From NCBI RefSeq assembly GCF_036248255.1, contig NZ_CP109178.1, positions 5,580,001-5,644,000 on the forward strand: a stretch of DNA of 64,000 nt. The letters are read 5' to 3'. The notes below the pieces were generated by a model, which was not told where the DNA came from, did not search any database, and saw only the letters and a list, made by a program, of their open reading frames with translations. A program made the translations under genes and the position numbers. The DNA is from Streptomyces sp. NBC_01717. Its GTDB lineage: Bacteria; Actinomycetota; Actinomycetes; Streptomycetales; Streptomycetaceae. Every line of letters starts with the position of its first letter. The stretch's first letter is position 1. Shown here in pieces: positions 50,663 to 64,000 of the stretch.

Positions 50663-52069
50663 TCAGCCGGCCGGGACCCGGTCCGGCGAGGTGATCGTGG
50701 CCGTCGGGATGTGCGTCGTGTCGCGGCGGGCGAGCAGCCAGTACAGCAAGGCGGGTACGAGCAGGCCGATCACCCAGGAGATGTCCGCGCCGCCCAGCGG
50801 CTCCACCAACGGGCCGGTGTAGAAGGTCGTCGCCAGGAAGGGGAGCTGGGCGACGATGCCCACCGCGTACACCGACAGTGCGTCCCAGCGCCAGGCGCCG
50901 TAGCGGCCGTCGGGGTCGGACAGGGCCGGGATGTCGTACCGCTCACGCGAAATCAGGTAGTAGTCGACGAGGTTGATCGCCGACCACGGGGTGAAGAAGG
51001 TCAGCAGGAACAGCAGGAAGTCCTTGAACGAGGTGAGGAAGGTGTCCTTGCCGAGCAGGGCGACCGCCGTGCCCGCGATCATGATCACGGCGATGTACGC
51101 GGAGCGGCCGCGCTGCGAGAGCGCCCGCTGCCCGCGGAAGCCGCTGATGCCGGTGACCATCGACATGAACCCGCCGTAGGTGTTCAGCACGTTGATGGTC
51201 AGCTTGCCGAGCGCGATCACGAAGTAGAGCAGCGAGGCGATCAGGCCGGTGCCGCCCAGCGAGACGACGTAGCCGACCTGGTCGTCGAGGAACGCCTCGC
51301 CCGCGGATGCCGCGACCAGCACGCCGAAGGCCATGGACCACTGGGAGCCGAGCGTCGTGCCGGCCAGTGTCCACCAGAAGGTGGCGCGGGTGCTCGTGTG
51401 GCGCGGCAGGTAGCGCGAGTAGTCCGCGACGTAGGGCCCGAACGCCAGCTGCCAGGACGCCGCGATCGACACCGCGAGCAGGAACATCGGCAGGTCGAAG
51501 GCACGGTCGGCGAGGGCGGCGCCGAGATCGATCCGGTCCAGCAGCCGGATGCCGAGATAGACGAAGGCCAGTGCGCAGACCACGCTGGCGACCCGGCCGA
51601 GGACGTGGACGATCCGGTAGCCGATCGCCGCCATCAGCGCGGTGATCACGGCGAAGACGAGGATGCCGGGGGTCTGCCCGAGGTGGGTGAGCTCGCCGAC
51701 CGCCTGACCGGCCAGCACGCTGCCGCTGGCGAAGAAGCCGACGTACATCACGACGACGAGGAGCAGCGGCACGACCGCGCCCCGCACCCCGAACTGTGCC
51801 CGGCTGGAGATCATCTGGGGCAGACCCAGCCGGGGGCCCTGCGCCGAGTGCAGCGACATCACCGCTCCGCCGAGCAGATTGCCCACCAGCAGGCCGATCA
51901 GGGACCAGAAGGCGCCGCCGCCGAAGATGACCGCGAGCGCGCCGCTGACCACTGCGGTGATCTGGAGGTTCGCGCCGAGCCAGAGGGTGAACTGGGAGAA
52001 CGCGTTTCCGTGCCGTTCGTCGTCCGGTACGACGTCGATCGAGCGGCGCTCGACGAGAGAGTCGGCCAT
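50663..52069 (-). CDS. NCS1 family nucleobase/cation symporter
   Basis: A 468-residue permease with 12 predicted helices. It shows the NCS1/cytosine-permease pattern: FTLWLGANLQITAVVSGALA near helix 1 and FWWTLAGTTLGSQWSMAFGV (~238-257), with PWSAINLVDYYLISRERYDI (~377-396) after helix 10. The family imports cytosine, purines, hydantoins, allantoin or thiamine-like compounds; the substrate here is uncertain. ATG 52069 has AAGGAG upstream and starts only 17 bp after the betaine-type binding-protein gene. It is therefore the last gene of the importer operon and may share its regulation and substrate class. Confidence 0.9.
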   Translation of the reverse strand: MADSLVERRSIDVVPDDERHGNAFSQFTLWLGANLQITAVVSGALAVIFGGGAFWSLIGLLVGNLLGGAVMSLHSAQGPRLGLPQMISSRAQFGVRGAVVPLLLVVVMYVGFFASGSVLAGQAVGELTHLGQTPGILVFAVITALMAAIGYRIVHVLGRVASVVCALAFVYLGIRLLDRIDLGAALADRAFDLPMFLLAVSIAASWQLAFGPYVADYSRYLPRHTSTRATFWWTLAGTTLGSQWSMAFGVLVAASAGEAFLDDQVGYVVSLGGTGLIASLLYFVIALGKLTINVLNTYGGFMSMVTGISGFRGQRALSQRGRSAYIAVIMIAGTAVALLGKDTFLTSFKDFLLFLLTFFTPWSAINLVDYYLISRERYDIPALSDPDGRYGAWRWDALSVYAVGIVAQLPFLATTFYTGPLVEPLGGADISWVIGLLVPALLYWLLARRDTTHIPTATITSPDRVPAG

Positions 52070-52086
52070 GAGGTGCTCCTTTTCGC

Positions 52087-53046
52087 TTACTTCTGTGTCA
52101 GGCCGTGCGCCGCGGCCCACTCGTGCGCCACGTCCTCCGGGTCCTTCTTGTCCTTGTCCACCAGGCGGTTCAGCTCCGTGAGGTCCTTCGTCGTGAGAGT
52201 GGCGCCCAGGCGGGCCAGTGCCTTGCGGACCGTGGAGTCCGCCGCGCGGTCCGCGATCAGGGGGACCACGTGCTGGCCGGGGATCAGGTTCTTGGGGTCG
52301 GTGAGGACCACCCAGCCCTCGGCGGCGATGTCCGTGTCGGTGGTGAAGAGGTTGGCGACGTCGACGTCGCCCTTCTTCAGGGCCCCCTTGACCAGCGGGC
52401 CGGAGGAGTCCAGCGACTTGAACTCCTTGAACTCGACTCCGTACACGTCCTTCAGGCCCACCGCCCCGACCGTCCGCTTCTTCACCTCGGGGGCCGCGCC
52501 GATGACGAGCTTCCCGTTCTGCTTCGCCAGGTCGGCGAGGGAGGACAGACCGTATTTCCTGGCCGTCCTCGTGGTGACCACGAAGGCGTCCGAGTCCTCG
52601 GCCATGCCGTACGGGAGGATCTGGAGGCCCTTGGGGAGGGCGATGGCCAGGGCGTTCTGCATCTCGCCCTCCTCGGTGGCTTTCGCCTTCGGGTCGAGGT
52701 AGTGCAGGAGGGCGCCCTGGTACTCGGGGAGGAGGTCGATGTCGCCGCCCTCGAGGGCGGGGATGAGGATCTCGCGGGTGCCCAGGTTGGCGCGGACCTC
52801 TGTCTTCACTCCGGCGGCCTGCAGGGCTTCGGCGTACAGGTAGCCGAGCACCTGGTTCTCGGTGAAGTTGGCCGTGCCGATCGTGATGCCGCCGGCGCTG
52901 GAGCCGGCGCCGCTGCTGCTGCCTCCGCCCTGGCCGTCGAGCGAGGTGATGCCGCTGCTGCAGGCCGCGAGTGCGGGGACGGCGGCCGCGGCGAGGAGGC
53001 CGCCCAGCAGGGAGCGACGGGTGGTGCTGTGGGGCTGGTGGGTCAT
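52087..53046 (-). CDS. OpuC/EgtU-like substrate-binding lipoprotein
   Basis: A 319-residue receptor of the quaternary-ammonium (glycine betaine/choline) class. The twin-arginine-like start TTRRSLLGGLLAAAAVPALAA ends in lipobox LAAC (Cys ~29). The ligand domain shows ITIGTANFTENQVLGYLYAE (~54-73), DIDLLPEYQGALLHYL (~101-116) and LFTTDTDIAAEGWVVLTDPK (~237-256), all typical of OpuCC-family proteins. Ergothioneine receptors (EgtU) also belong to this fold. The gene is in an operon with two permeases and an ATPase, and divergent from a HAL-like lyase, which hints at a histidine-derived betaine as ligand (inferred). Confidence 0.92.
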   Translation of the reverse strand: MTHQPHSTTRRSLLGGLLAAAAVPALAACSSGITSLDGQGGGSSSGAGSSAGGITIGTANFTENQVLGYLYAEALQAAGVKTEVRANLGTREILIPALEGGDIDLLPEYQGALLHYLDPKAKATEEGEMQNALAIALPKGLQILPYGMAEDSDAFVVTTRTARKYGLSSLADLAKQNGKLVIGAAPEVKKRTVGAVGLKDVYGVEFKEFKSLDSSGPLVKGALKKGDVDVANLFTTDTDIAAEGWVVLTDPKNLIPGQHVVPLIADRAADSTVRKALARLGATLTTKDLTELNRLVDKDKKDPEDVAHEWAAAHGLTQK

Positions 53047-53057
53047 GGGTGGTCTCC

Positions 53058-53720
53058 TCAGGCGGTGCGGTGACGGAAGAGGATGCGCTGCAGTCCGGAC
53101 AGGACCAGGTCCAGGGCGACGGCCACGACCGCCACGAGGACCGCGCCGCCCAGTACCTGGACGAGGTCACGCTGGGCCAGGCCGTCGAAGACGTACCGGC
53201 CGAGGCCGCCGAAGCTGACGTACGCGGCGACCGTGGCGGTGGCGACGACCTGGATCAGGGCGAGGCGCAGGCCGGTCATGATCAGGGGGAGGGCGAGGGG
53301 GAGTTCCACCTGCCACAGGATCTGGTGGCCACGCATGCCCTGGCCGCGGGCGGCGTCCTTCACCTCCGGGTCGACGGCGGTCATCCCGGCGTAGGTGTTG
53401 GTGACGATCGACGGGACGGCGAGGGCGACCAGCGCCACGTACACCGGGGTCATCGACAGGCCGCTGGCCAGGAAGACCAGCACCACCAGGCCGACCGTGG
53501 GGAGCGCCCGGCCGAACGACGAGAGGTTGATGGCGAGGAACGCGCCGCGCCCCGTGTGGCCGATGAGCAGGCCGATCGGGAGCGCGATCGCCGTGGCGAT
53601 CAAGGTGGCGAGGAGCGAGTACTGGAGGTGCTCGGCAAGGCGGTGTGCGATGCCGTCCGGGCCCTGCCACTGTTCGGCGCTGGTCAGCCAGGTGCCGAGG
53701 TTCGCGAAGAGTTCGTACAT
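53058..53720 (-). CDS. Betaine-type ABC permease, subunit 1
   Basis: A 220-residue OpuCB/OpuCD-like permease with five to six helices. EHLQYSLLATLIATAIALPI lies near the N-terminus, and the coupling loop is DPEVKDAARGQGMRGHQILWQVELPLALP (around residues 117-145; key Glu-Ala-Ala-Arg-x-x-Gly pattern). It lies 11 bp before the binding-protein gene and 3 bp after the second permease, so it is tightly co-transcribed. Two distinct permease genes for a heterodimeric pore are usual for OpuC-type importers. Confidence 0.93.
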   Translation of the reverse strand: MYELFANLGTWLTSAEQWQGPDGIAHRLAEHLQYSLLATLIATAIALPIGLLIGHTGRGAFLAINLSSFGRALPTVGLVVLVFLASGLSMTPVYVALVALAVPSIVTNTYAGMTAVDPEVKDAARGQGMRGHQILWQVELPLALPLIMTGLRLALIQVVATATVAAYVSFGGLGRYVFDGLAQRDLVQVLGGAVLVAVVAVALDLVLSGLQRILFRHRTA

Positions 53721-53723
53721 CGG

Positions 53724-54368
53724 TCAGGCCCTCTGCTTCCGCTTCCAGGGGGTGAGCACGTACTGCACGGCCACCAGCGCCGCGTCCGCGACCAGCGCGA
53801 GCAGCAGGGTCAGGGCGATGCCGACGACCACCGGGGTCGGGAAGTTGCGCTGGAACCCGTCCGTGAAGAGCTGGCCGAGGCCGCCGTCGCCGATGTACGT
53901 GGCCACGCTGACCAGCGAGATCGACATGACCGTGGCGATCCGTACGCCCGCCATGATCACGGGGAGGGCGAGGGGGAGCTCGACGGTGAGCAGGATGCGC
54001 AGTGGGCGGGTGCCCATCGCCTTGGCGGCCTCCCTGGTGCGCGCCGGGACGGAGTCCAGGCCCTCGACCGTGTTGCGGAGGAGCACGACCAGTGTGTAGA
54101 CGGTCAGGCCGATCACCGTGGTGGTGCGGGTGAGGCCGGACACCGGCAGGAGAAGGACGAAGACCGCGATGGACGGGATCGTGAAGAGGATGTTCGACAG
54201 GCCCAGGAGGAAGCCGCGCAGGGGGCGTACCCGGTGGGCCAGGACGGCCAGCGGGAGCGAGATCAGCAGGCCGAGGAGCACGGCGGTCAGGGCGGCCTGG
54301 AGGTGGGAGACGGTGAGGGTGGCGAGGTCGCTCGCGTGGTCGGAGATCCACGACCAGTCGATGGTCAT
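53724..54368 (-). CDS. Betaine-type ABC permease, subunit 2
   Basis: A 214-residue OpuC-type permease: TVSHLQAALTAVLLGLLISL, ILFTIPSIAVFVLLLPVSGL and coupling loop SVPARTREAAKAMGTRPLRI (~107-126), then FPTPVVVGIALTLLLALVAD. It begins with ATG 54368 overlapping the ATPase stop by 4 nt, so translation is coupled. It is about 30 % identical-looking to the other permease over the coupling region, consistent with an ancient duplication (by eye). Confidence 0.93.
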   Translation of the reverse strand: MTIDWSWISDHASDLATLTVSHLQAALTAVLLGLLISLPLAVLAHRVRPLRGFLLGLSNILFTIPSIAVFVLLLPVSGLTRTTTVIGLTVYTLVVLLRNTVEGLDSVPARTREAAKAMGTRPLRILLTVELPLALPVIMAGVRIATVMSISLVSVATYIGDGGLGQLFTDGFQRNFPTPVVVGIALTLLLALVADAALVAVQYVLTPWKRKQRA

Positions 54369-55495
54369 GCGCTGCCCTTTCCGGCCGGAGCCGTCGCGGG
54401 CAGGGGGGCCGCGACCGCTGCGGTGTGGGCGTCCCCCGCCCGCGCGTGGACGGCCTCGCGCGCGGTGACCCCGGTCAGTACGCCCGTGTCGTCGACCCGG
54501 GCTATCAGGCCGGCCGGGGAGGCGACCGACTCGTTCAGCGCGGAGAGCAGCGAGTCGGTGTCGCGCAGCGGACGTACGGGGAGGAGCGGGGCGTCGCCCG
54601 CCGGGCCCGACGGAGCGGCTGCCGGGTCCAGCCAGCCGAGGGGTTCGCCCTTGGCGGAGACGACCAGCTGCCAGTCGGCGCGCCCGGCGGGGGCGGGTTC
54701 GTCGGCCCGTACCGTCCTCGCCGGCTGCCGGGGGAGATCTGCGAGCGTGCTCAACGAGAGCAGCTTCAGGCCGCGTTCGGCGCCGAGGAAGTCGGCGACG
54801 AAGTCGTCGGCCGGGCGCGCGAGCAGTTCGGCGGGCGGTGCGCACTGCACCAGATGACCGCCGGTACGGAACACGGCGATCCGGTCGCCGAGCCGGACCG
54901 CCTCGTCGATGTCATGGGTGACGAAGACGATGGTCTTGTTCAGCTCCTGCTGGAGGCGGAGCAGCTCGTCCTGGAGCTGGGTCCGGACGACGGGGTCGAC
55001 CGCGCCGAACGGCTCGTCCATCAGCAGCACCGGCGGATCCGCGGCGAGCGCACGCGCGACACCGACGCGCTGCTGCTGGCCGCCGGAGAGCTGGTGCGGG
55101 TAGCGCTTGGCGGCGTCCGCCGGAAGCCCGACCGTCTCCAGCAGTTCGGCCGCGCGGGCCCGGGCGCGCTTGCGCCCGTGGCCCAGCAGCAGCGGGACCG
55201 TGGCGATGTTGTCGAGGATCGTGCGGTGCGGAAAGAGCCCGGCCTGCTGGATGACGTATCCGATGCCCCGGCGGAGCTCGGCGGCGTCCGCTTCGAGGAT
55301 GTTCCGGCCGCCGAGCGTGATCGTGCCGGAGCTCGGATCGATCATCCGGTTGATCATCCGGAGGGTGGTGGTCTTGCCGCAGCCGGACGAACCGACCAGG
55401 ACGGTGATGCCGCCCTCCGGCATGGTGAGGCTGAGCTCATGAACTGCTGTTGTGCCGTTCGGGAAACGCTTGTTCACTGCGTCGAATTTGATCAT
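54365..55495 (-). CDS. Betaine-type ABC ATPase with regulatory C-terminus
   Basis: A 376-residue ATPase of the OpuCA class. Walker A is GSSGCGKTT (~35-43), the signature LSGGQQQRV (~134-142), Walker B VLLMDEPFGAVDP and the switch VTHDIDEAVRLGD. The C-terminal ~110 residues replace the usual tandem CBS domains with one recognisable CBS-like half (~315-355, LPVRPLRDTDSLLSALNESV) and a degenerate first half, so ionic-strength sensing may be altered. ATG 55495 has AAGGGA upstream. It is the first gene of the five-gene importer operon. Confidence 0.93.
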   Translation of the reverse strand: MIKFDAVNKRFPNGTTAVHELSLTMPEGGITVLVGSSGCGKTTTLRMINRMIDPSSGTITLGGRNILEADAAELRRGIGYVIQQAGLFPHRTILDNIATVPLLLGHGRKRARARAAELLETVGLPADAAKRYPHQLSGGQQQRVGVARALAADPPVLLMDEPFGAVDPVVRTQLQDELLRLQQELNKTIVFVTHDIDEAVRLGDRIAVFRTGGHLVQCAPPAELLARPADDFVADFLGAERGLKLLSLSTLADLPRQPARTVRADEPAPAGRADWQLVVSAKGEPLGWLDPAAAPSGPAGDAPLLPVRPLRDTDSLLSALNESVASPAGLIARVDDTGVLTGVTAREAVHARAGDAHTAAVAAPLPATAPAGKGSA

Positions 55496-55514
55496 CGGTC
55501 GTCCCTTGCCCCGG

Positions 55515-55560
55515 CTGCATATAGTCATGCAGAGTTCTCGTTGACTGAATAGGTTGTCAA
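55515..55560. promoter_or_regulatory. Two inverted repeats in the lyase/importer divergent region
   Basis: CTGCAT-ATAGTC-ATGCAG (55515-55532) and TTGAC-N10-GTCAA (55541-55560) lie between the ATPase start (55495) and the lyase start (55634). Either could be the operator through which the RpiR regulator controls both transcripts. Clear -35/-10 pairs are not evident. Confidence 0.45.
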
Positions 55561-55633
55561 TGCCTCGGGGTAAAACACTGGTTACAGAAGCCCGAGCGGC
55601 GAGATGTTGTGTCTGAATGAGGAGGGTTCGCGC

Positions 55634-57229
55634 ATGATGTCGTCCCACATGATGGACTCCTCGCCCTTCGGTGGCTGGGCCGCGGACCATGCCGTCGCCG
55701 TCGTCGAGCTCGATGGCCGGACCCTGCCCGTCGCCGACGTCGTCCGGATCGCCCGTGGTACCGCCCGGCCCGTGCCCGGTGCCGAGGCGATGAAGCGTGT
55801 CGACCGGTCCTGGTCCGCCGCCCGGGAGCTCGCCGCGACCGGGCGAGTCTACGGGCGCTCCACCGGGGTCGGCGCCAATCGCAACGAGGGCGTTCCCACC
55901 GAGGCCGCCGCCGATCACGGGCTGCGCCTGCTGCGCAGCCACGCCGGGGCCATCGGTGACCCGCTGCCCGCCCGCGAGGTCCGCGCCATGCTCGCCGTGC
56001 GCGCCAATCAGCTGCTTGCGGGCGGTGCCGGACTGCGGCCCGGCGTCGTCGTGGGTCTCTGCGAGGCGCTGGAGGCCGGCGCGCACCCGGTGGTCAACGA
56101 GTTCGGTTCGGTCGGTACCGGGGACATCGCCGCCCTGGCCCAGGTCGGCCTCGCACTCGCCGGGGAGCATCCCTGGCAGGGGCCCGGCGCCGCGCCCGAG
56201 CCCCAGTCGCTCGACAACAACGACGCCCTTGCCCTGATCAGCAGCAACGCCCTCACCCTCGGTCAGGCCGCCCTCGCGCTCGACGAGCTGCGCCGGCTCG
56301 TCACCGCCACCGAAGCGGTCGCCGCGCTCTCGCTGCTCGCGGTCGACGGTTCGTACGAGGCGTACGCCGAACCGGTCCACGCCGCCCGTCCGCACCCCGG
56401 CTCGTACCAGGTCGCGGCGCGGATGCGGCAGTTGCTCGGCGCTCCCGACCGCCCGGGGCCGCCGCTCGGCCGGATCCAGGACCCGTACGGTTTCCGCTGC
56501 CTGCCGCAGATCCACGGCCCCGCGCAGGACGCCGCCGACGCGCTCGAACGCGTCCTCGCCGTCGAGATCAACGCCGCCGCCGAGAACCCGCTGATCTGCC
56601 CGGACGCCGGTCTCAACGGCAGCCCTGCCGCCTACCACCACGGCGGCTTCTACATGGCCCAACTCGCCCTGGCTCTCGATCACTTCAGGCTCGCGGTCAC
56701 CCAGGTCGCCCGGCTCTCCACCTCTCGGCTCTCGGCTCTCAACGAGCCGTCCTTCACCCGGCTGCGGCCGTTCCTCGCGGACGGCGAGCCCGCCGCCTCG
56801 GGCGTGATGATCCTGGAGTACGCGGCCGGGGCCGCCCTCGGCGATCTGCGGGCGTTCTCCGCGCCCGCCTCGCTCGGTCATGCCGTGCTCTCCCGCGGCG
56901 TCGAGGAGCAGGCCAGCTTCGCCTCGCTGGCCGCCCGTCAGACACTGCGCGTCTGCAGCGCCTACCGGCAGGTCGTCGCCTGCGAACTCGTCTCCGCCGT
57001 AAGGGCGTTGCGCCTGCGCGACCTGCGGCCCGATCCTGAGCTGCCGGTCGGGCGGGCGTTCGCGCTGGCCGATTCGTTGCTCGACGCCGAGCTCGCGGAC
57101 CGGCCGCTCACCGATGATGTGAAGGCGGCGGCCGGGGAACTGCTCGACCGCTGCACGGATCTGTGGAACACCGGACTCACCGGAACGAGCCGGGACACCG
57201 GACTCACCAGTACAAGGGGGACAGCATGA
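55634..57229 (+). CDS. HAL/PAL-family lyase homologue lacking the MIO triad
   Basis: A 531-residue member of the histidine/phenylalanine ammonia-lyase superfamily. Conserved elements are VYGRSTGVGAN (Tyr73), RIQDPYGFRCLPQIHG (281-295) and AENPLI (316-321). The MIO-forming triad is missing: where HAL has GSVGASGDLA, this protein has GSVGTGDIA (158-166), one residue shorter and without the Ser. The Asn of HAL LLNGT is also changed (LISSN, 201-205). Conventional ammonia elimination is therefore unlikely. Known MIO-free relatives (ergothionase) eliminate trimethylamine instead. The start is ATG 55634 behind GAGGAGGG. It is coupled to the RpiR gene (ATGA) and divergent from a betaine importer. Confidence 0.85.
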   Translation: MMSSHMMDSSPFGGWAADHAVAVVELDGRTLPVADVVRIARGTARPVPGAEAMKRVDRSWSAARELAATGRVYGRSTGVGANRNEGVPTEAAADHGLRLLRSHAGAIGDPLPAREVRAMLAVRANQLLAGGAGLRPGVVVGLCEALEAGAHPVVNEFGSVGTGDIAALAQVGLALAGEHPWQGPGAAPEPQSLDNNDALALISSNALTLGQAALALDELRRLVTATEAVAALSLLAVDGSYEAYAEPVHAARPHPGSYQVAARMRQLLGAPDRPGPPLGRIQDPYGFRCLPQIHGPAQDAADALERVLAVEINAAAENPLICPDAGLNGSPAAYHHGGFYMAQLALALDHFRLAVTQVARLSTSRLSALNEPSFTRLRPFLADGEPAASGVMILEYAAGAALGDLRAFSAPASLGHAVLSRGVEEQASFASLAARQTLRVCSAYRQVVACELVSAVRALRLRDLRPDPELPVGRAFALADSLLDAELADRPLTDDVKAAAGELLDRCTDLWNTGLTGTSRDTGLTSTRGTA

Positions 57230-58068
57230 GCAGCCCGGCCGCGCGGTTGCAGCAGCTCTTCGAGGGGCACCGGCTCACGCCCACCCAGCGGCGCATCGCG
57301 CACTCCATGGTCCGGCGGGCCGCCGATGTGCCGTTCCTGTCCAGCGTGGAACTGGCCGATCTGGCCGGGGTCAGCCAGCCGTCCGTCACCCGCTTCGCCG
57401 TCGCGCTCGGGTTCGACGGGTATCCGGCACTGCGCAAGCACCTGCGGGAGGTCGCCCCCGGACCCGGTGAGGCGGCGGGCGCCGTCGACGACACCTACAA
57501 CGAATACCAGCAGGCCGTCCACGCCGAGATCGAGAACCTGCGGCACCTCGCCGACCTGCTCGCCGACCCCACTCCCGTCGAGCGGGCGGGGCGGCTGCTC
57601 GCCGCGTCGCGGCCGCTGCTCGTGCTCGGGCTGCGCGCCGCCTCCTCGCAGGCGCGTGGCTTCGGCTACTTCGCAGCCAAGGTCCACCCGGATGTGCGGG
57701 TGCTCGACGAGGGCGGCAGCATGCTGCGCGACCGCATCGACGCCGCGCGGCGGGCGGGGGCGAGCGCGCTGGTCTGCTTTGCGCTGCCACGCCACCCGAA
57801 GGAGGTCGTGGACGCGCTCGCGTACGCCCAGGAACAGGGTCTGACCGTGGTGTCGGTGGCCGACTCGGCGTTCACCCCGGTGGCCGCACACAGCGATCTG
57901 CTGATTCCGGCGGCCGTCGGCACCGGGCTCGCCTTCGACACCGCGTGTGCGCCGATGCTGCTGGGGCGGGTGCTGCTGGAGGCGATGTGCGACGACCTGC
58001 CCGATGCGCAGGCGCGGCTGGAGGAGTTCGACGCGCGGGCGGCGGCGCGCGGTCTGTTCGCCGAGTGA
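57226..58068 (+). CDS. MurR/RpiR family transcriptional regulator
   Basis: A 280-residue regulator. The N-terminal RpiR HTH (~5-80: LTPTQRRIAHSMVRRAADV, LADLAGVSQPSVTRFAVALG) precedes a SIS-like domain (~125-255: LVLGLRAASSQARGFGYFAAK and LVCFALPRHPKEVVDALAYA, then LTVVSVADS) that usually binds phosphosugars or other small ligands. It starts within the lyase stop (ATGA), so it is co-expressed with the lyase and is the natural candidate to sense the pathway ligand and control the divergent importer operon. Confidence 0.93.
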   Translation: MSSPAARLQQLFEGHRLTPTQRRIAHSMVRRAADVPFLSSVELADLAGVSQPSVTRFAVALGFDGYPALRKHLREVAPGPGEAAGAVDDTYNEYQQAVHAEIENLRHLADLLADPTPVERAGRLLAASRPLLVLGLRAASSQARGFGYFAAKVHPDVRVLDEGGSMLRDRIDAARRAGASALVCFALPRHPKEVVDALAYAQEQGLTVVSVADSAFTPVAAHSDLLIPAAVGTGLAFDTACAPMLLGRVLLEAMCDDLPDAQARLEEFDARAAARGLFAE

Positions 58069-58277
58069 GCGTGGGGCCGGGGTTGGGACTGCTGCCGGGG
58101 AGGGGAGCGGTCCTGCCGGGCGGGGACGGCATGGCGGACGCCCGGTGGTGCCGAATGCTCGGCCGGGAGTCCAGGAATCACTGCGGATTTTCAGAAACTG
58201 CTCAGACGTTGCTCAGGCACGGCCATTAATCTGCGCCCACAGAAACAGCACCGATGGCTGTCGAGAGGGGTACGGAC

Positions 58278-58841
58278 GTGGGGCGCGGAGCGCAGTCGCT
58301 GGCAAGGGTGGCCGTGATCGTACGGGCCGGAGCTGTACCGCTGTGGTGGCCGGGGCTGCTCGCCGCCGCCGTCGGCGCGCTCGTCCCGGGGCTCACCGGC
58401 CGGCGGATCGGACTGCTGGCCGGAGCCGCGCTCTTCCTGGTCACCGCAGTGGTGGTGGCGCTCGCCCGCGGGGGCAGGTACGCGGAATTGGCCCGGGCCG
58501 CCACCCGCGCCGGGCGGACCGACTTCCTCCAGGACCGGGCCGTGACCGTACGCAACTGGCGTCGCGGGCACCGGTGGTGGCTGCTGGGCGGGTTCCTCGT
58601 GGCGATCACCGGCGGGTTCCTGCTGCCCGGCGCCGGTGGGCTGGTGCTCGCGGGTGCCGGGGCGGGGCTCTGGCTCAAGGCGGTCCGGATCGGACGGCGG
58701 GAGCGCAAGGACGACGTCCTGTACTGGGTGCGGAGCGACTGGGTGGAGAAGGGGCGGCCCGCGGGCAAGCAGGTCGCGGCGTACCGGACGACCGGGCCGG
58801 TGGCGGGCGACGCCGCGCCCGGTGGGGCGCGGCGTCGCTGA
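58278..58841 (+). CDS. Small membrane protein of unknown function
   Basis: A 187-residue protein with four hydrophobic segments (about 12-32, 38-62, 98-118 and 120-136). A basic loop (RNWRRGHRWWLLGG) and a basic cytoplasmic tail (IGRRERKDDVLYWVRSDWVE) accompany them. I do not recognise a family. GTG 58278 is preferred because GAGAGGGG precedes it by 7 nt; ATG 58254 lacks a ribosome site. It is convergent with the Roadblock cluster, 16 bp between stops. Confidence 0.65.
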   Translation: MGRGAQSLARVAVIVRAGAVPLWWPGLLAAAVGALVPGLTGRRIGLLAGAALFLVTAVVVALARGGRYAELARAATRAGRTDFLQDRAVTVRNWRRGHRWWLLGGFLVAITGGFLLPGAGGLVLAGAGAGLWLKAVRIGRRERKDDVLYWVRSDWVEKGRPAGKQVAAYRTTGPVAGDAAPGGARRR

Positions 58842-58857
58842 GGGTGTGCTGCGGAGG

Positions 58858-59232
58858 TCAGACCTCCAGTTCGGCCTCGATCCGCTTCAGCTGGTGGCGG
58901 GCCATCGCCAGGTTGGCGCGGGCGGCGTCCAGCACCAGGTAGAGGAAGAGACCGTTGGTGCCGCGCGCCTTGAGCAGCCGGATCAGGTGGTACTGGGCGC
59001 CGAGGGTGATCAGGATGTCCTCGATCTCGTCCTTGATGCCGAGGTGTTCCATCGTGCGGAGTTTGGCACGTACGACATCGGTGTTGCCCGCGGCCGCGAC
59101 ATCCAGGTTGAAGTCCTTGCCGCCGCCGAGGGTGCCCAGCGCCATGCCGCTGGTGTAGTCGACGAGTGCGACACCGAGGGTGCCCTCGATGGAGGTCATC
59201 GCTTCCTTGAGTGACGCTTCGGTGTTGGCCAT
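58858..59232 (-). CDS. Roadblock/LC7-like protein, fourth gene of the cluster
   Basis: A 124-residue Roadblock/LC7-type protein: LGVALVDYTSGMALGTLGGG (~19-38), a central helix and IEDILITLGAQYHLIRLLKA (~70-89), then GLFLYLVLDAARANLAMARH. It closely parallels the first gene of the cluster (60656-61084), so the two are paralogues. Roadblock proteins form homo- or heterodimers that regulate small GTPases (MglB for MglA, CvnB for CvnD). No GTPase gene is present here. The start is ATG 59232. Confidence 0.85.
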   Translation of the reverse strand: MANTEASLKEAMTSIEGTLGVALVDYTSGMALGTLGGGKDFNLDVAAAGNTDVVRAKLRTMEHLGIKDEIEDILITLGAQYHLIRLLKARGTNGLFLYLVLDAARANLAMARHQLKRIEAELEV

Positions 59233-59310
59233 GAGTGCTTGTTTCCTTTCCTTGCCGGTCGAGGCGACCGGCTCCGATATCTGGCGTTCCTGGTGCGGAT
59301 GAGGCTGGTA

Positions 59311-59778
59311 TTACGTGCGGTGCGGGAGCGGGCCGCCGGCGGGCGGGGTGCGGGGGCGCGGGGCGTGCGACACGGGCGCGGGTTGTGCGGTGCGTCGCAG
59401 GGCGGTGTCGACCAGTTCGCCGATCCGGGTGCTCGCCCGGCGGCCTTCCAGGTGGAGCCGGCCGACGTTGATCCGGTCCTCGGCCAGGAGCGTGAGCACT
59501 GCGGAGGAGCCCGCCGCGTACGTGGCGATGTAGCCGGTCTCGCCTCGTACGAGCAGTTCGCGGAAGCCGCCCCGGCCCGTCGCCTCCGTCATCCGGAGCG
59601 CGACGCCGAGCGAGGCCGCGGTCAGTGCGGCGACGCCCTCCGCCTCCACTCCCGGGGTGTCCTGGGCCAGGACGAGTCCGTCGGTGCTGGCCGCCAGCGC
59701 GCCCGCGAGGAGCGGAACCCGGGCGCGTAGCCGCTGGAGTTCGGCCAGGACGTCCTGGACTTCGGCCTCGGGAACCAT
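59311..59778 (-). CDS. Roadblock/LC7 domain protein (MglB/CvnB type)
   Basis: A 155-residue protein with a canonical Roadblock fold: VPLLAGALAASTDGLVLAQD (~21-40), LTAASLGVALRMTEATGRGG (~53-72), GYIATYAAGSSAVLTLLAED (~82-101) and LHLEGRRASTRIGELV. A Pro/Arg-rich tail (~125-155) is added. In conservon systems this type is paired with a sensor-kinase-like CvnA and the GTPase CvnD; here only Roadblock and DUF4388 neighbours are present. ATG 59778 has GGAGGAG upstream on the minus strand. Confidence 0.87.
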   Translation of the reverse strand: MVPEAEVQDVLAELQRLRARVPLLAGALAASTDGLVLAQDTPGVEAEGVAALTAASLGVALRMTEATGRGGFRELLVRGETGYIATYAAGSSAVLTLLAEDRINVGRLHLEGRRASTRIGELVDTALRRTAQPAPVSHAPRPRTPPAGGPLPHRT

Positions 59779-59816
59779 CAGTTGTCTCCTCCCGGCACGC
59801 TGTCTGAGCGCGCGTA

Positions 59817-60659
59817 TCACAGGGCCTCCAATGCGTCTCTGAGCCGGCGCAGCAGGGCGACGTCGGGGTCGGCCGTGACCTCGGGAAGCGTGATCCGGCC
59901 GGGCGCGGAGGCGGACGGGGCTGCCGTCTGCCGGACCGCTTCGACCAGTCCGGCGGCCGTGAGCCGCCGCAGGTCGACGAGGATGTGGAACGCCGAGCGG
60001 CCCAGGTGCTGTGCGATGTCGGATGCCGTACGCACTCCGTCCACCAGGTCGAGTACGCGGCGCCGACGTGCGGGGACGGGGGCGTCGACGGGACGGGCCG
60101 CCCGGACGAGCGGGGCGGTGTCGGTCATCGCGTCGGGCCAGATCCGGTCCAGCAGCTCCCGGCGCCGGAGCGTCTCGCGCTGCACGGCATCGACGGGGAC
60201 GGGGTGCACGGGACCGATCCAGTGCGAGACCCCGTAACGGAACCGGGCCGGGGTCCGGGTGGGGGCGAGGGCGAAGAAGGCGGCGTCGTACAGCGCTCCC
60301 AAGTGGCAGAGCTCCAGGGCGCCGCCGGGTATCCGTCCGCTGTCCACCAGGTAGCGGCCGACCCGCTGCCCGGCGCCCGCCTGGGCGACCGCGTCCCACC
60401 AGCCGTCGCGGTGCAGGGTGCCGCCGGTGGTGAGCAGGATGTCGATGCCTGGTGTCGCGGGACTCTCGGCGTGCACGACCTGGCCGTCGGCGAGGTAGAG
60501 CGTGCCGCGGTCGCGCATCAGGGCGCCGGTGGCGCGCTCGGCGGCGAGGCGCTGGAGCATGGGGGAGAGGGCGGAGGCTGCTCTCACGGGGGAGGTTCTC
60601 TCGGGTGAGGTTCTGTGGGTTCTGTCGGGGGGTGTTCTCTCGGGCACGACGGTTCTCAT
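59817..60659 (-). CDS. DUF4388-like/winged-helix protein linked to Roadblock genes
   Basis: A 280-residue soluble protein. After a disordered basic start (~1-28) a DUF4388-like region follows (~34-150: LQRLAAERATGALMRDRGTLYLADGQVVHAES, key GALxxxxGTLYLxDGxVxxA; then GRYLVDSGRI and ALYDAAFFAL). The C-terminal part (~185-255) is winged-helix-like (RRVLDLVDGVRTASDIAQHL, LRRLTAAGLVE). DUF4388 proteins occur in two-component and gliding systems. Its start overlaps the stop of the first Roadblock gene by 4 nt. It could bring the Roadblock complex to DNA (inferred). Confidence 0.78.
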   Translation of the reverse strand: MRTVVPERTPPDRTHRTSPERTSPVRAASALSPMLQRLAAERATGALMRDRGTLYLADGQVVHAESPATPGIDILLTTGGTLHRDGWWDAVAQAGAGQRVGRYLVDSGRIPGGALELCHLGALYDAAFFALAPTRTPARFRYGVSHWIGPVHPVPVDAVQRETLRRRELLDRIWPDAMTDTAPLVRAARPVDAPVPARRRRVLDLVDGVRTASDIAQHLGRSAFHILVDLRRLTAAGLVEAVRQTAAPSASAPGRITLPEVTADPDVALLRRLRDALEAL

Positions 60660-61084
60660 GCCAGGACCAGCCGCTTTGCCATCTCACCCAGCCGTATCCG
60701 GGCGAGCGCCAGGTTGCCGTCGGAACGGTCGAGCCACAGATGCAGGAAGACGCTGCTGTCGAAGGCCGTCTCCACGAATCGGAGGATGTGGTAACCGGCG
60801 CGGGTGGTGACGATGACGTCCTCCACCGGAGGCGCCGCGCCCTTGGCCTTGACGTCGTTCTCCTCCGGGCCTGTTGAGGGTTCCGGGTCGGAGAGGGCGA
60901 ACGCGGGCTGCTCCACCGCCATGCGCGCCACCTCGGCCGTCTCGGCGGCGGTCGCCTCGTGATCGCCGTTGGGCGATTCACCGATGGTGCCCAGGGCGAG
61001 ACCACTCGTCCAGTCGACCACCGCGGCGCCGCGGGCACCGGGCAGCCTCATGACTTCGAGCAGGCACTCGTCGATTCCGGACAC
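60656..61084 (-). CDS. Roadblock/LC7-like protein, first gene of the cluster
   Basis: A 142-residue Roadblock-like protein: ARGAAVVDWTSGLALGTIGE (~17-36), then a cluster-specific acidic insert (~60-85, DPEPSTGPEEND) and VEDVIVTTRAGYHILRFVET (~86-105), VFLHLWLDRSDGNLALARIR. It is paralogous to the fourth gene of this four-gene operon but is longer by the insert. It is translationally coupled to the DUF4388-like gene. The operon is divergent from hutU across 268 bp. Confidence 0.82.
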   Translation of the reverse strand: MSGIDECLLEVMRLPGARGAAVVDWTSGLALGTIGESPNGDHEATAAETAEVARMAVEQPAFALSDPEPSTGPEENDVKAKGAAPPVEDVIVTTRAGYHILRFVETAFDSSVFLHLWLDRSDGNLALARIRLGEMAKRLVLA

Positions 61085-61352
61085 GCGGACTCCCTCCCCC
61101 GACCGGACGCACGGCTGTGACCCTGAGGCTACGCAACGTGCTCGCCCGGGGTGGGAGTTCTGGCATTTTCCATTGGTACATGCGGAAGACGGTCGGAAAC
61201 GGTCGGACTCGTTGAGGCCCTTGTCATGTTCTGTCCGTCTTGGGTGCCGCTCCCTGTCTTCCGGGCAGGTCTTTCGGGCGCGCCTGTTGACTACAAGTAT
61301 TCAGAGAGACAGGATGTGAATAGAAGCATCACAGAAGCGAGGAGGCATTGCC
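61085..61352. promoter_or_regulatory. Divergent region between the Roadblock operon and hutU
   Basis: For hutU, TTGACT (61287-61292), 17 nt and CAGGAT (61310-61315) form a plausible promoter. An inverted repeat TATTCA-N13-TGAATA (61298-61303 and 61317-61322) overlaps its -10 and could be an operator. A direct repeat of ACGGTCGGA lies near 61195. I see no clear promoter for the minus-strand operon. Confidence 0.55.
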
Positions 61353-63014
61353 ATGTCAGGACCCCGCCCCGTACGGGCACCGCGCGGTACGGAACTGAGC
61401 GCCCTGGGATGGCAGCAGGAAGCCGCCCTCCGCATGCTGCAGAACAACCTCGACCCCGAGGTCGCCGAGCACCCCGACAAGCTCGTCGTCTACGGCGGCA
61501 CGGGCAAGGCGGCCCGCGACTGGCGCTCGTTCGACGCCATGGTGCGCACGCTGCAGACGCTCAAGCAGGACGAGACGATGCTCGTCCAGTCCGGGCGGCC
61601 GGTCGGCGTCATGCAGACCCACGAATGGGCGCCGCGCGTCCTGATCGCCAACTCCAACCTGGTCGGCGACTGGGCGAACTGGGAGGAGTTCCGCCGCCTG
61701 GAGGCGCTCGGACTCACCATGTACGGCCAGATGACCGCCGGGTCGTGGATCTACATCGGCACACAGGGCATCCTGCAGGGCACGTACGAGACGTTCGCCG
61801 CCGTCGCCGCGAAGAAGTTCAACGGGACGCTGGCCGGGACGATCACCCTGACCGCCGGACTCGGCGGCATGGGCGGCGCCCAGCCGCTCGCGGTCACCAT
61901 GAACGACGGCGTCGCGATCTGCATCGACTGCGACCCGCGTGCCATCGAGCGCCGCATCGAGCACCGCTACCTGGATGTGCGCGCCGACTCCCTGGAGCAC
62001 GCGCTCCAGCTCGCCGTCGAGGCGCGCGACGCACGTAAGTCGCTCTCCATCGGGCTGCTCGGCAACGCGGCGGAGCTGCTGCCCCGGATGCTCGCCGAGG
62101 GCGCCCCGATCGACATCGTCACCGACCAGACGAGCGCGCACGACCCGCTCGCGTACCTCCCGATCGGCGTCGACTTCGACGACATGGCCGCGTACGCCGC
62201 CGAGAAGCCCGCCGACTTCACGCAGCGGGCCCGCGAGGCGATGGCCAAGCACGTCGAGGCGATGGTCGGCTTCATGGACGCCGGGGCCGAGGTCTTCGAC
62301 TACGGCAACTCGATCCGCGGCGAGGCCAGGCTGGCGGGCTACGACCGGGCGTTCGACTTCCCCGGGTTCGTCCCCGCGTACATCCGGCCGCTGTTCTGCG
62401 AGGGCAAGGGCCCGTTCCGCTGGGCCGCGCTGTCCGGCGAGGCGTCGGACATCCACAAGACCGACAAGGCGATGCTCGAACTCTTCCCCGAGAACGAGTC
62501 GCTGCACCGATGGATCAAGATGGCCGGCGAACGCGTCCACTTCCAGGGGCTGCCCGCCCGGATCTGCTGGCTCGGCTACGGCGAGCGCGACCGTGCCGGT
62601 GAGCGGTTCAACGACATGGTGGCCAGCGGTGAGCTGGCCGCGCCGCTGGCGATCGGCCGCGACCACCTGGACTGCGGGTCGGTGGCGTCCCCGTACCGCG
62701 AGACCGAGGCGATGCTCGACGGGTCCGACGCGATTGCGGACTGGCCGCTGCTGAACGCCATGGTCAACGTGGCGTCCGGCGCCTCTTGGGTCTCCATCCA
62801 CCACGGTGGCGGCGTCGGGATGGGGCGCTCCATCCACGCGGGGCAGGTGACCGTGGCCGACGGCACGAAGCTGGCGGGCGAGAAGATCCGCCGGGTGCTG
62901 ACGAACGACCCGGGCATGGGCGTCATCCGGCATGTCGATGCCGGGTACGACATCGCGGAGTCCGTCGCCGCGGACAAGGGCGTGCGGGTGCCGATGACCG
63001 AGGGCGGGCAGTGA
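61353..63014 (+). CDS. hutU: Urocanate hydratase
   Basis: A 553-residue cytosolic enzyme converting urocanate to imidazolonepropionate with a tightly bound NAD+. Typical features are seen: [12 protein letters not shown] near the N-terminus, [15 protein letters not shown], the NAD loop [19 protein letters not shown] (~170-188), and [17 protein letters not shown]. Near the C-terminus [19 protein letters not shown] follows. Length equals the family norm. Start ATG 61353 has GAGGAGG upstream. The M20 hydrolase frame opens 2 bp after the stop. No ordinary hutH is linked; the lyase 5 kb away lacks MIO. Confidence 0.97.
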
Positions 63015-63016
63015 CG

Positions 63017-64000
63017 GTGCCTGGCGCGGCCGGCTCGGTGGGGGGTTCGCTGTCGGGCGCGGGTTCGCCCGCGCCCACCCTCCGCCATGGCCCTGAAGGC
63101 GGGGGAGACACCTCCCCCGCCCCGCGGAACGAAGGCCCGCAAGTCTCCTTCCAGGGCATGTGGAAGGAGCTTGCCCCCATCGGGCGGCATCCCGGGAGCG
63201 GCGGCTACCGCCGCTACGCCTGGACCGCCGCCGACGGTGACTGCCGTGGCTGGTTCCGGGCGCAGGCCGAAGCCCGCGGGCTCGGGTACGAGGTCGACCG
63301 GAACGGGAACCAGTGGGCCTGGCTCGGGGACCCGCTCGGTGACGACGCCGTCGTCACCGGGTCGCACCTCGACTCCGTGCCCGACGGCGGTGCCTTCGAC
63401 GGGCCGCTCGGTGTGGTCTCCTCCTTCGCCGCGTTCGATGAACTCCGCCGCAGGGGAGCGGAGTTCACCCGTCCGTTCGCCATCACCAACTTCGGTGACG
63501 AGGAAGGGGCCCGGTTCGGGCTCGCGTGTGTCGGGTCCCGGCTCGCCGCCGGGCAGCTGACCGTCGAGAAGGCGCACCAGCTCCGCGACGGCGACGGCAT
63601 CACACTGCCGCAGGCCATGGAGGCCGCCGGCTACGACCCCGAGGCCATCGGGCCGGACCCTGAACGGCTGGCCCGTATCGGTGCGTTCGTCGAGCTCCAC
63701 GTCGAACAGGGGCGCTCCCTCGACCTCACCGGCGACCCGGTCGGTATCGCCTCCGCCATCTGGCCGCACGGCCGCTGGCGGTTCGACTTCCGGGGTGAGG
63801 CCAACCACGCGGGCACCACCCGGCTCGTGGACCGGCGCGACCCGATGCTCACATACGCCGAGACCGTGCTGGCCGCCCGTCGCGAGGCGCAGCTCACCGG
63901 CGCCCTGGCCACCTTCGGCAAGATCGCCGTCGAGCCGAACGGGGTCAACGCCATCCCCTCCCTCGTCCGGGGCTGGCTCGACTCGCGCGCCGCCGACCAG
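63017..64000 (+). CDS. M20 family amidohydrolase, allantoate amidohydrolase-like (3' end outside window)
   Basis: The first ~328 codons of a zinc-dependent M20/AllC-class hydrolase, open to the window edge. Metal ligands are visible in TGSHLDSVPDGGAFDGPLGV, in FGDEEGARFG and in ELHVEQG; the dimer/substrate region is FRGEANHAGTT. The family hydrolyses N-carbamoyl, N-formimino or ureido amides. In a hut context a role on N-formyl- or formimino-glutamate is plausible (inferred). The frame extends up to GTG 63017, but two strong hairpins lie before the first family-like residues, so ATG 63158 (MWKELAPIGRHPG) may be the true start. Confidence 0.88.
   Translation, partial: MPGAAGSVGGSLSGAGSPAPTLRHGPEGGGDTSPAPRNEGPQVSFQGMWKELAPIGRHPGSGGYRRYAWTAADGDCRGWFRAQAEARGLGYEVDRNGNQWAWLGDPLGDDAVVTGSHLDSVPDGGAFDGPLGVVSSFAAFDELRRRGAEFTRPFAITNFGDEEGARFGLACVGSRLAAGQLTVEKAHQLRDGDGITLPQAMEAAGYDPEAIGPDPERLARIGAFVELHVEQGRSLDLTGDPVGIASAIWPHGRWRFDFRGEANHAGTTRLVDRRDPMLTYAETVLAARREAQLTGALATFGKIAVEPNGVNAIPSLVRGWLDSRAADQ
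63055..63120 (+). other. Two tandem perfect hairpins between hutU and the M20 gene
   Basis: GGGCGCGGG-TTCG-CCCGCGCCC (63055-63076) is a 9-bp stem with a stable TTCG tetraloop. GCGGGGGAG-ACAC-CTCCCCCGC (63099-63120) is a second 9-bp stem. They could attenuate transcription after hutU or protect the hutU message. Confidence 0.75.

Follow-up and report, generated by a model that had tools for sequence, protein, structure and literature searches.

In a 64,000-nucleotide stretch of Streptomyces sp. NBC_01717 (contig NZ_CP109178.1, positions 5,580,001 to 5,644,000; C1:5580001-5644000 of a 10.2-Mb genome), hereafter the window, an importer operon stands divergent from a gene for a lyase of the histidine ammonia-lyase (HAL) fold family that has, by its sequence, lost the 4-methylideneimidazole-5-one (MIO) triad. 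We consider it probable, though far from certain, that this enzyme is a trimethylamine-lyase of hercynine (N-alpha-trimethylhistidine), feeding urocanate rather than thiourocanate to the urocanate hydratase HutU. Hercynine is preferred to ergothioneine on three grounds: a true HutU as the hydratase, no second urocanase found in the genome, and the absence of the pocket residues of ergothionase. The wider proposal, that a second MIO-free HAL-fold family is widespread in actinobacteria and that its members are hercynine trimethylamine-lyases forming a second entrance to histidine utilisation, appears to us evenly poised.

The loss of the motif from a HAL-like lyase, which the first-pass annotation had noted in the window, extends to every orthologue compared: in 80/80 Streptomyces orthologues, Thr-Gly stands in place of the Ala-Ser-Gly triad, one residue having been lost (the window lyase reads GSVG-T-GDI). 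These are the best 80 of 265 relatives in the genome collection, are all Streptomyces and in part lie on short contigs. A further set of 27 actinobacterial rows includes five from Streptomyces (the window and loci L084, L087, L153 and L157), and the two sets make 106 distinct rows, the L084 row repeating locus L013 of the 80. HAL residues 195-197, Asn-Gly-Thr, read Ser-Ser-Asn in the window lyase; the triad deletion and the first Ser are common to both sets and to 13 ergothionase rows, and HAL Y53, H83, Q277, R283 and E414 are the same in all of these as well as in nine HAL rows. HAL Met382 is kept in 21 of the 27 actinobacterial rows and in the 80 from Streptomyces. Judged by these residues, the actinobacterial lyase group has lost the cofactor and kept a HAL-like imidazole site. 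The curated HutH model TIGR01225 scores the window lyase at 291 bits, under a cut-off of 539, and the lyase reaches the cut-off of no curated ammonia-lyase model; the ergothionase of Treponema denticola also falls short of the HutH cut-off (363 bits), and a search of NCBIfam with it gave no ergothionase model. Where Streptomyces members are named in the database listing, they are called histidine or aromatic amino acid ammonia-lyases. A HutH-annotated protein of Burkholderia pyrrocinia (L112:7917-9410), beside an amine-type ATP-binding cassette (ABC) importer and hutC, lacks three residues at the triad (GSVG---YLTHM) and keeps Asn-Gly-Thr, possibly an independent loss of MIO.

In a tree built without the MIO columns, with supports read by split, the actinobacterial clade (30 rows) and the ergothionase clade (13 sequences) each have a bootstrap of 100, and the window lyase lies outside the clade of the characterised T. 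denticola ergothionase. Omission of the long-branch paralogue L155_13605 gives the two clades a joint bootstrap of 100 against HAL, and the value stays at 100 when BpyrL112 is removed too. On these splits the actinobacterial MIO-free lyases are firmly a family distinct from ergothionase and most likely its sister, which upholds the earlier description of the lyase as an MIO-free relative of ergothionase. A single MIO loss for both MIO-free groups is likely, though not proven, because they group in the tree and share the deletion and the S-x-N motif. Loci L095, L102, L103 and L105 and seven near-identical Streptomyces loci are not in the tree, and some further loci (e.g. L146 and L152) dropped out by open-frame length; L149, L151 and L166 stand twice in the first tree set and once in the residue counts and in the tree without L155_13605. 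The long-branch PF00221-like paralogue at L155:13473-14942, which lies near hut genes and has no triad recognisable by pattern, destabilises the tree.

The lyase and its neighbours lie in the window as follows.

50663..52069, minus strand: NCS1-family permease (PF02133, 190 bits in Pfam)
52087..53046, minus strand: OpuAC-type substrate-binding lipoprotein, the receptor (PF04069, 179 bits)
53058..53720, minus strand: ABC importer permease (PF00528)
53724..54368, minus strand: second ABC importer permease (PF00528)
54365..55495, minus strand: ABC importer ATPase of ProV/OpuCA type (PF00005; TIGR01186 306 bits, cut-off 326.6)
55496..55603, no strand: divergent promoter region, with conserved core TCATGCAGAGTTCT, then CTGAATAG.TTGTCAA
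55604..57229, plus strand: MIO-free HAL-fold lyase, proposed hercynine trimethylamine-lyase (PF00221, 387 bits; start codon uncertain)
57226..58068, plus strand: RpiR-type regulator (PF01418)
61299..61321, no strand: palindrome ATTCA-N13-TGAAT in the hutU promoter, candidate hut operator
61353..63014, plus strand: hutU, urocanate hydratase (TIGR01228 903 bits, cut-off 375)
63011..64000, plus strand: 5' part of the M20 amidohydrolase gene of the hut operon (NF006770 659 bits), running past the window end

The gene order given by the first-pass annotation, with importer and NCS1 permease divergent from the lyase, then RpiR and hutU further on, is confirmed gene by gene, and so is the coupling it described, with 4-base overlaps between the lyase and RpiR genes and between the ATPase and permease genes. 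On the plus strand the lyase and RpiR genes are followed 4.1 kb on by hutU, the M20 hydrolase gene, hutF and hutI, the last two lying beyond the 3' end of the window and both above their model cut-offs. The SIS match of the RpiR protein, at 19.4 bits, is under the cut-off of 25. The divergent arrangement of importer and lyase is more than chance, because an importer gene is directly divergent from the lyase in 66 of the 80 Streptomyces loci, sharing one 14-base promoter core. In 60 of the 80 this gene is that of the ATPase, which is the cleaner figure, matches to ATPase and receptor being partly remnants or remote paralogues (e.g. in L009, L017, L028, L047 and L080). The NCS1 permease is an optional member of the locus, present in 27/80 and directly divergent from the lyase in six, those without ABC genes; among solved structures it comes closest to the hydantoin permease Mhp1, at 26 bits.

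Outside Streptomyces, the window lyase as query found a match in 13/396 genomes of a phylum sample (E up to 1e-70) and in 29/394 of a class sample (E up to 1e-65), and the L100 lyase in 8/66 genomes of another class. We counted 25 non-Streptomyces loci, leaving out L098, L102, L103, L106, L153 and L157 as same-genus loci. Importer genes adjoin the lyase in 15 of the 25, in several arrangements, and hutU lies within about 10 kb in eight; to this extent the co-occurrence in other actinobacteria, on which the first-pass annotation had made its reading depend, holds, and its link to the hut pathway finds better evidence here than in Streptomyces. The chance of a hutU within that distance is below 1% per locus, by arithmetic that assumes one hutU per genome of 3 to 11 Mb, as was checked in the window's genome only. 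On an Arthrobacter plasmid (L097) the genes for the ATPase, two permeases, receptor, HutU and lyase follow one another on one strand in operon-like fashion, and in L101 one strand carries RpiR, an SSS sodium symporter, HAL, the ABC importer, the lyase, M20 and hutU. A triad-bearing HAL stands in the same cluster as lyase and hutU in five loci (L101, L143, L144, L151 and L152), and a sixth hutU locus, L155, ends within a HAL homologue. The side-by-side occurrence of a canonical HAL and the MIO-free lyase suggests that the two take different substrates to a common product. L143 and L144, two genomes of a single genus, have egtA-B-C-D at a distance of about 3 kb from the lyase, with importer, HAL and hutU adjoining, and the EgtD of L144 is above its model cut-off; EgtD is the methyltransferase that forms hercynine.

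Some other arrangements were also seen. In L096, L147 and L154, which have no importer or hutU nearby, the lyase has in its vicinity a gene for a LacI-type regulator and one resembling an amidohydrolase gene (named by eye). A cysteine-dioxygenase-like gene, also named by eye, occurs in L096 and L144, the one in L144 being without an NCBIfam match at 1e-20. In the Streptomyces loci L102 and L106, genes resembling those for a sensor kinase, roadblock protein and GTPase lie between the importer permeases and the receptor-lyase pair, and L103 has the same gap by spacing alone.

Within Streptomyces, RpiR occurs in 71/80 and hutU in 60/80 lyase loci. RpiR was also found in 58 of 61 Streptomyces genomes and a lyase match in 15 of 40. 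Twelve RpiR loci were hand-picked from the 58 genomes: hutU is in 11, the lyase in two, and hutU without a lyase in the locus in nine, absence referring here to the locus (genome G107 has its lyase on another contig). In the nine lyase loci without RpiR, importer genes still adjoin the lyase, and in G107, one of the genomes concerned, RpiR-hutU is on another contig. RpiR-hutU is thus a common Streptomyces block, often with the lyase-importer pair as an accessory neighbour. Since the block occurs without the lyase, the 4-kb distance between lyase and hutU in Streptomyces is background synteny and says little. A small roadblock-like gene (named by eye) between RpiR and hutU, at window 58858-59232, belongs to this synteny, its type being found in 53/80 lyase loci and 10/12 RpiR loci. 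RpiR as a dedicated regulator of the lyase, as the first-pass annotation had it, was rejected on the 58 of 61 genomes with RpiR and the nine of 12 RpiR loci where hutU occurs without a lyase in the locus.

The importer has the OpuC/ProX architecture, with an OpuAC receptor, two permeases and a ProV-type ATPase just below the proV cut-off (306 vs 326.6), and the OpuC-type importer linked to the lyase is thereby retained from the earlier reading. The receptor's relatives in the PDB are AfProX (85 bits) and EgtU (83 bits). For EgtU, the reference pocket residues K242 and G244 (invariant) and the cage F293, Y341, Y419 and Y443 are those given in PMC9732360. In the window receptor EgtU K242, G244, N339, Y341, Y419 and Y443 become A, F, D, D, F and Q, the F293 position is Y, and E375 and R379 are kept, so that two of the four positions of the trimethylammonium cage are aromatic. 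The window receptor was rejected as an EgtU, G244 and K242 being replaced and two of the four cage positions non-aromatic; the EgtU-type receptor of the first-pass annotation falls with it, and, half of the betaine cage being lost, a quaternary ammonium compound is no more than a candidate ligand. Among the well-aligned lyase-linked receptors only that of L101 has all four cage positions aromatic, keeping K242, N339, Y341 and Y443 and having Y293; for rows L145, L148 and L151 the alignment is poor at several positions of the pocket. The acidic pocket was dropped as a sign of the lyase substrate, since relatives without a lyase share it.

The importer might then be an ordinary osmoprotectant system and a chance neighbour of the lyase, which would be compatible with any reading of the lyase itself. 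We find this doubtful, though to be taken seriously: receptor relatives occur in 245/394 genomes of the class and the lyase in 29/394, and the relatives without a lyase have the same pocket residues; against it, ABC genes adjoin the lyase in those 15 of 25 non-Streptomyces loci in several arrangements, and the importer stays with the lyase in the nine Streptomyces loci without an adjoining RpiR.

The pocket also bears on a second alternative, in which the lyase would act on an imidazole amino acid but expel some other amine or leaving group, giving urocanate or methylurocanate; N,N-dimethylhistidine and a ring-methylated or N-oxidised histidine betaine are examples of such substrates. Such a reaction would agree with the kept imidazole pocket and the lost MIO, and the Asp residues at EgtU positions 339 and 341 would be a better match for a protonated amine than for trimethylammonium. 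However, in the most basal locus, L101, the receptor encoded in the same gene run has the cage residues Y293, Y341 and Y443, and egtD is beside the lyase in L143 and L144; we regard this alternative as unlikely.

It is likewise improbable that the lyase is an ergothionase, converting ergothioneine to thiourocanate, even though its closest characterised relatives by clade are ergothionases, its importer family includes EgtU and the genome has egtA, egtB and egtD homologues, in a cluster at about 1.32-1.33 Mb (EgtD above its model cut-off, EgtA and EgtB named by eye, the intervening egtC by position alone). In T. denticola numbering, the ergothionase rows have Glu143 in 11/13, Leu280 in 13/13, Glu330 in 12/13 and Lys384 in 12/13. 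The 80 Streptomyces lyases have Thr, Tyr, Tyr and Tyr at these positions. In the 27 actinobacterial rows, position 143 is Thr in 23 and Ile in four, 280 is Tyr or Phe in 20, 330 is His in 20, and 384 is Tyr in 24 and Trp in three, the nine HAL rows having Tyr in seven and Val in two at the last. The window lyase thus lacks the ergothionase signature Lys384/Glu143/Glu330, reading Y, T and Y there; Lys384 of ergothionase reportedly binds the thione. On pSymA of S. meliloti (Sinorhizobium meliloti), an ergothionase-clade lyase (L109:10001-11575) has Ala at the Lys384 position, and its substrate may differ. EgtU's invariant G244 is, moreover, absent from the receptor.

The hydratase argues in the same direction. 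The window HutU scores 649 bits (cut-off 930) and 689 bits (cut-off 880) against thiourocanate hydratase models and is on these scores a true urocanate hydratase; a search of the genome found it as the only urocanase. All eight non-Streptomyces lyase-linked HutU proteins score as true urocanate hydratases. As a control we took five proteobacterial ergothionase-type loci, out of 32 plasmid records that hold an ergothionase-type lyase: two have a hydratase of thiourocanate-hydratase type, one a HutU and two none. At L111, in Burkholderia arboris, the partner hydratase of the ergothionase-type lyase is above the thiourocanate-hydratase cut-off (1044 vs 930); in Paracoccus denitrificans the type is assigned by homology, a 71% homologue of the L111 hydratase lying 1.6 kb from such a lyase. 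That the hydratase partner follows the lyase substrate is weakly supported by this mixed control. Of the two substrates that the first-pass annotation proposed, hercynine is therefore favoured and ergothioneine less likely, given the true HutU and the absent Lys384, Glu143 and Glu330; of its two products sent into the hut pathway, urocanate is the better reading and thiourocanate the poorer.

That the enzyme is an MIO-independent ammonia-lyase for histidine or aromatic amino acids, or a catalytically dead paralogue, is very improbable: the HAL fold family and most HAL active-site residues speak for it, but N195, G196, T197 and the triad are altered as in ergothionase, a triad-bearing HAL in the same cluster in 5/25 loci, and elsewhere in this genome, would make a second histidine lyase redundant, and the invariance of Y53, H83, Q277, R283 and E414 in the 106 distinct rows goes against decay. 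The only other PF00221 protein of this genome, 1.8 Mb away, has a Cys-Ser-Gly triad, which places the canonical HutH there.

Promoter sequences offer a suggestion, and only that, of one operator co-regulating the lyase and hut genes. The 14-base core TCATGCAGAGTTCT is present in 66/66 divergent orthologous intergenic regions, and the second element, CTGAATAG.TTGTCAA, is conserved in more than 80% of the aligned regions. The palindrome ATTCA-N13-TGAAT lies upstream of hutU in 61/61 regions, the window included; the 10.2-Mb genome has four such sites, one directly before hutH, and a reversed-pattern control gave none. A minus-strand site at 55546-55560 in the lyase promoter, TTGAC-N-TATTCA, also occurs in the hutU promoter, with four genome sites vs one in the reversed control, and the lyase promoter has the variant ATGCA-N14-TGAAT; both patterns were chosen after seeing the lyase promoter. 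Of the two remaining exact palindromes, the one at L211:5154 (C1:5176653) falls where a gene for a lipoprotein hydrolase begins, and the one at L212:5020 (C1:9195019) separates an aldo-keto reductase gene from a LysR gene; these genes are possible extra members of a hut regulon.

Several observations weigh against hercynine as the substrate, or against the locus as a hut-linked unit. The joint clade with ergothionase has a bootstrap of just 55 when L155_13605 is included. In the window receptor, cage tyrosines of EgtU and ProX are replaced by Asp and Gln, an altered pocket that is also found in relatives from genomes without a lyase match. In Paracoccus saliphilus (L110), an ergothionase-type lyase lies beside a true HutU in a full hut operon, and an ergothionase-type lyase can thus adjoin a true HutU; in Polaromonas and S. 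meliloti (L108 and L109) such lyases have no hydratase nearby. Nine plasmid records have a hydratase more than 60% identical to that of L111, two of them among the lyase-bearing records and seven not. Under a weight matrix built from the hutU sites, the lyase promoter did not outscore shuffled controls (median -32.7; 99% of them at or below -19.8). Finally, nine of the 25 non-Streptomyces loci, three of them on contigs under 10 kb, have neither importer nor hutU, and there the anticipated co-occurrence is not seen.

With hercynine nonetheless the substrate we favour, we infer the following for leaving group, transport and flux. Hercynine would be brought in by the divergent ABC importer, or in some strains by the NCS1 permease. 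Tyr83 of the lyase, equivalent to HAL Tyr53, would take the beta-proton, and trimethylamine would be expelled to leave urocanate, being perhaps a good enough leaving group without the MIO electrophile. HutU, the M20 hydrolase, HutF and HutI would then carry urocanate to glutamate. Among the titles and abstract openings met in a literature search that covered few subscription papers, none dealt with enzymatic cleavage of hercynine to urocanate.

If this reading is true, the ammonia-lyase names given to Streptomyces members of the clade are wrong, and there is a catabolic route from hercynine to glutamate and trimethylamine. One may further speculate that, in the genomes where the lyase lies beside ergothioneine biosynthesis genes, it could drain the hercynine intermediate back to glutamate, and ergothioneine producers may in this way control the level of the precursor by breakdown. 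The clade would also provide a clean test of the transition from an MIO enzyme to an MIO-free betaine lyase.

Among known systems, the closest is ergothionase (ergothioneine trimethylamine-lyase; T. denticola, PDB 6s7j/6s7q), which has in common with the lyase the MIO-free HAL fold, the one-residue triad deletion, S-x-N and the conserved active-site Tyr, Arg and Glu. Another ergothionase, that of Burkholderia sp. HME13, is known to us by description only. Unlike ergothionase, the actinobacterial lyases form a separate clade, have Thr for Glu143 and Tyr for Lys384, and at Glu330 have Tyr in Streptomyces and mostly His elsewhere, and the hydratase beside them, where seen, is HutU. Histidine ammonia-lyase HutH resembles the lyase in fold family and imidazole pocket (H83, M382 and E414) and, at some of the loci, in lying within or next to a hut cluster, whereas the lyase lacks the Ala/Cys-Ser-Gly triad and stays under the HutH cut-off (291 vs 539 bits). 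The ergothioneine importer EgtU of Firmicutes belongs, like the window receptor, to the OpuAC superfamily and has E375 and R379 in common with it; unlike EgtU, the receptor is not fused to a permease and has K242, G244, N339, Y341, Y419 and Y443 replaced. The ergothioneine sulfonate pathway of Agrobacterium radiobacter, judging by its title, is also a case of histidine betaine catabolism, with a different substrate. The actinobacterial hut operon (hutU, M20 amidohydrolase, hutF and hutI) is intact and ordinary next to the locus, and would gain from the lyase a second entry point.

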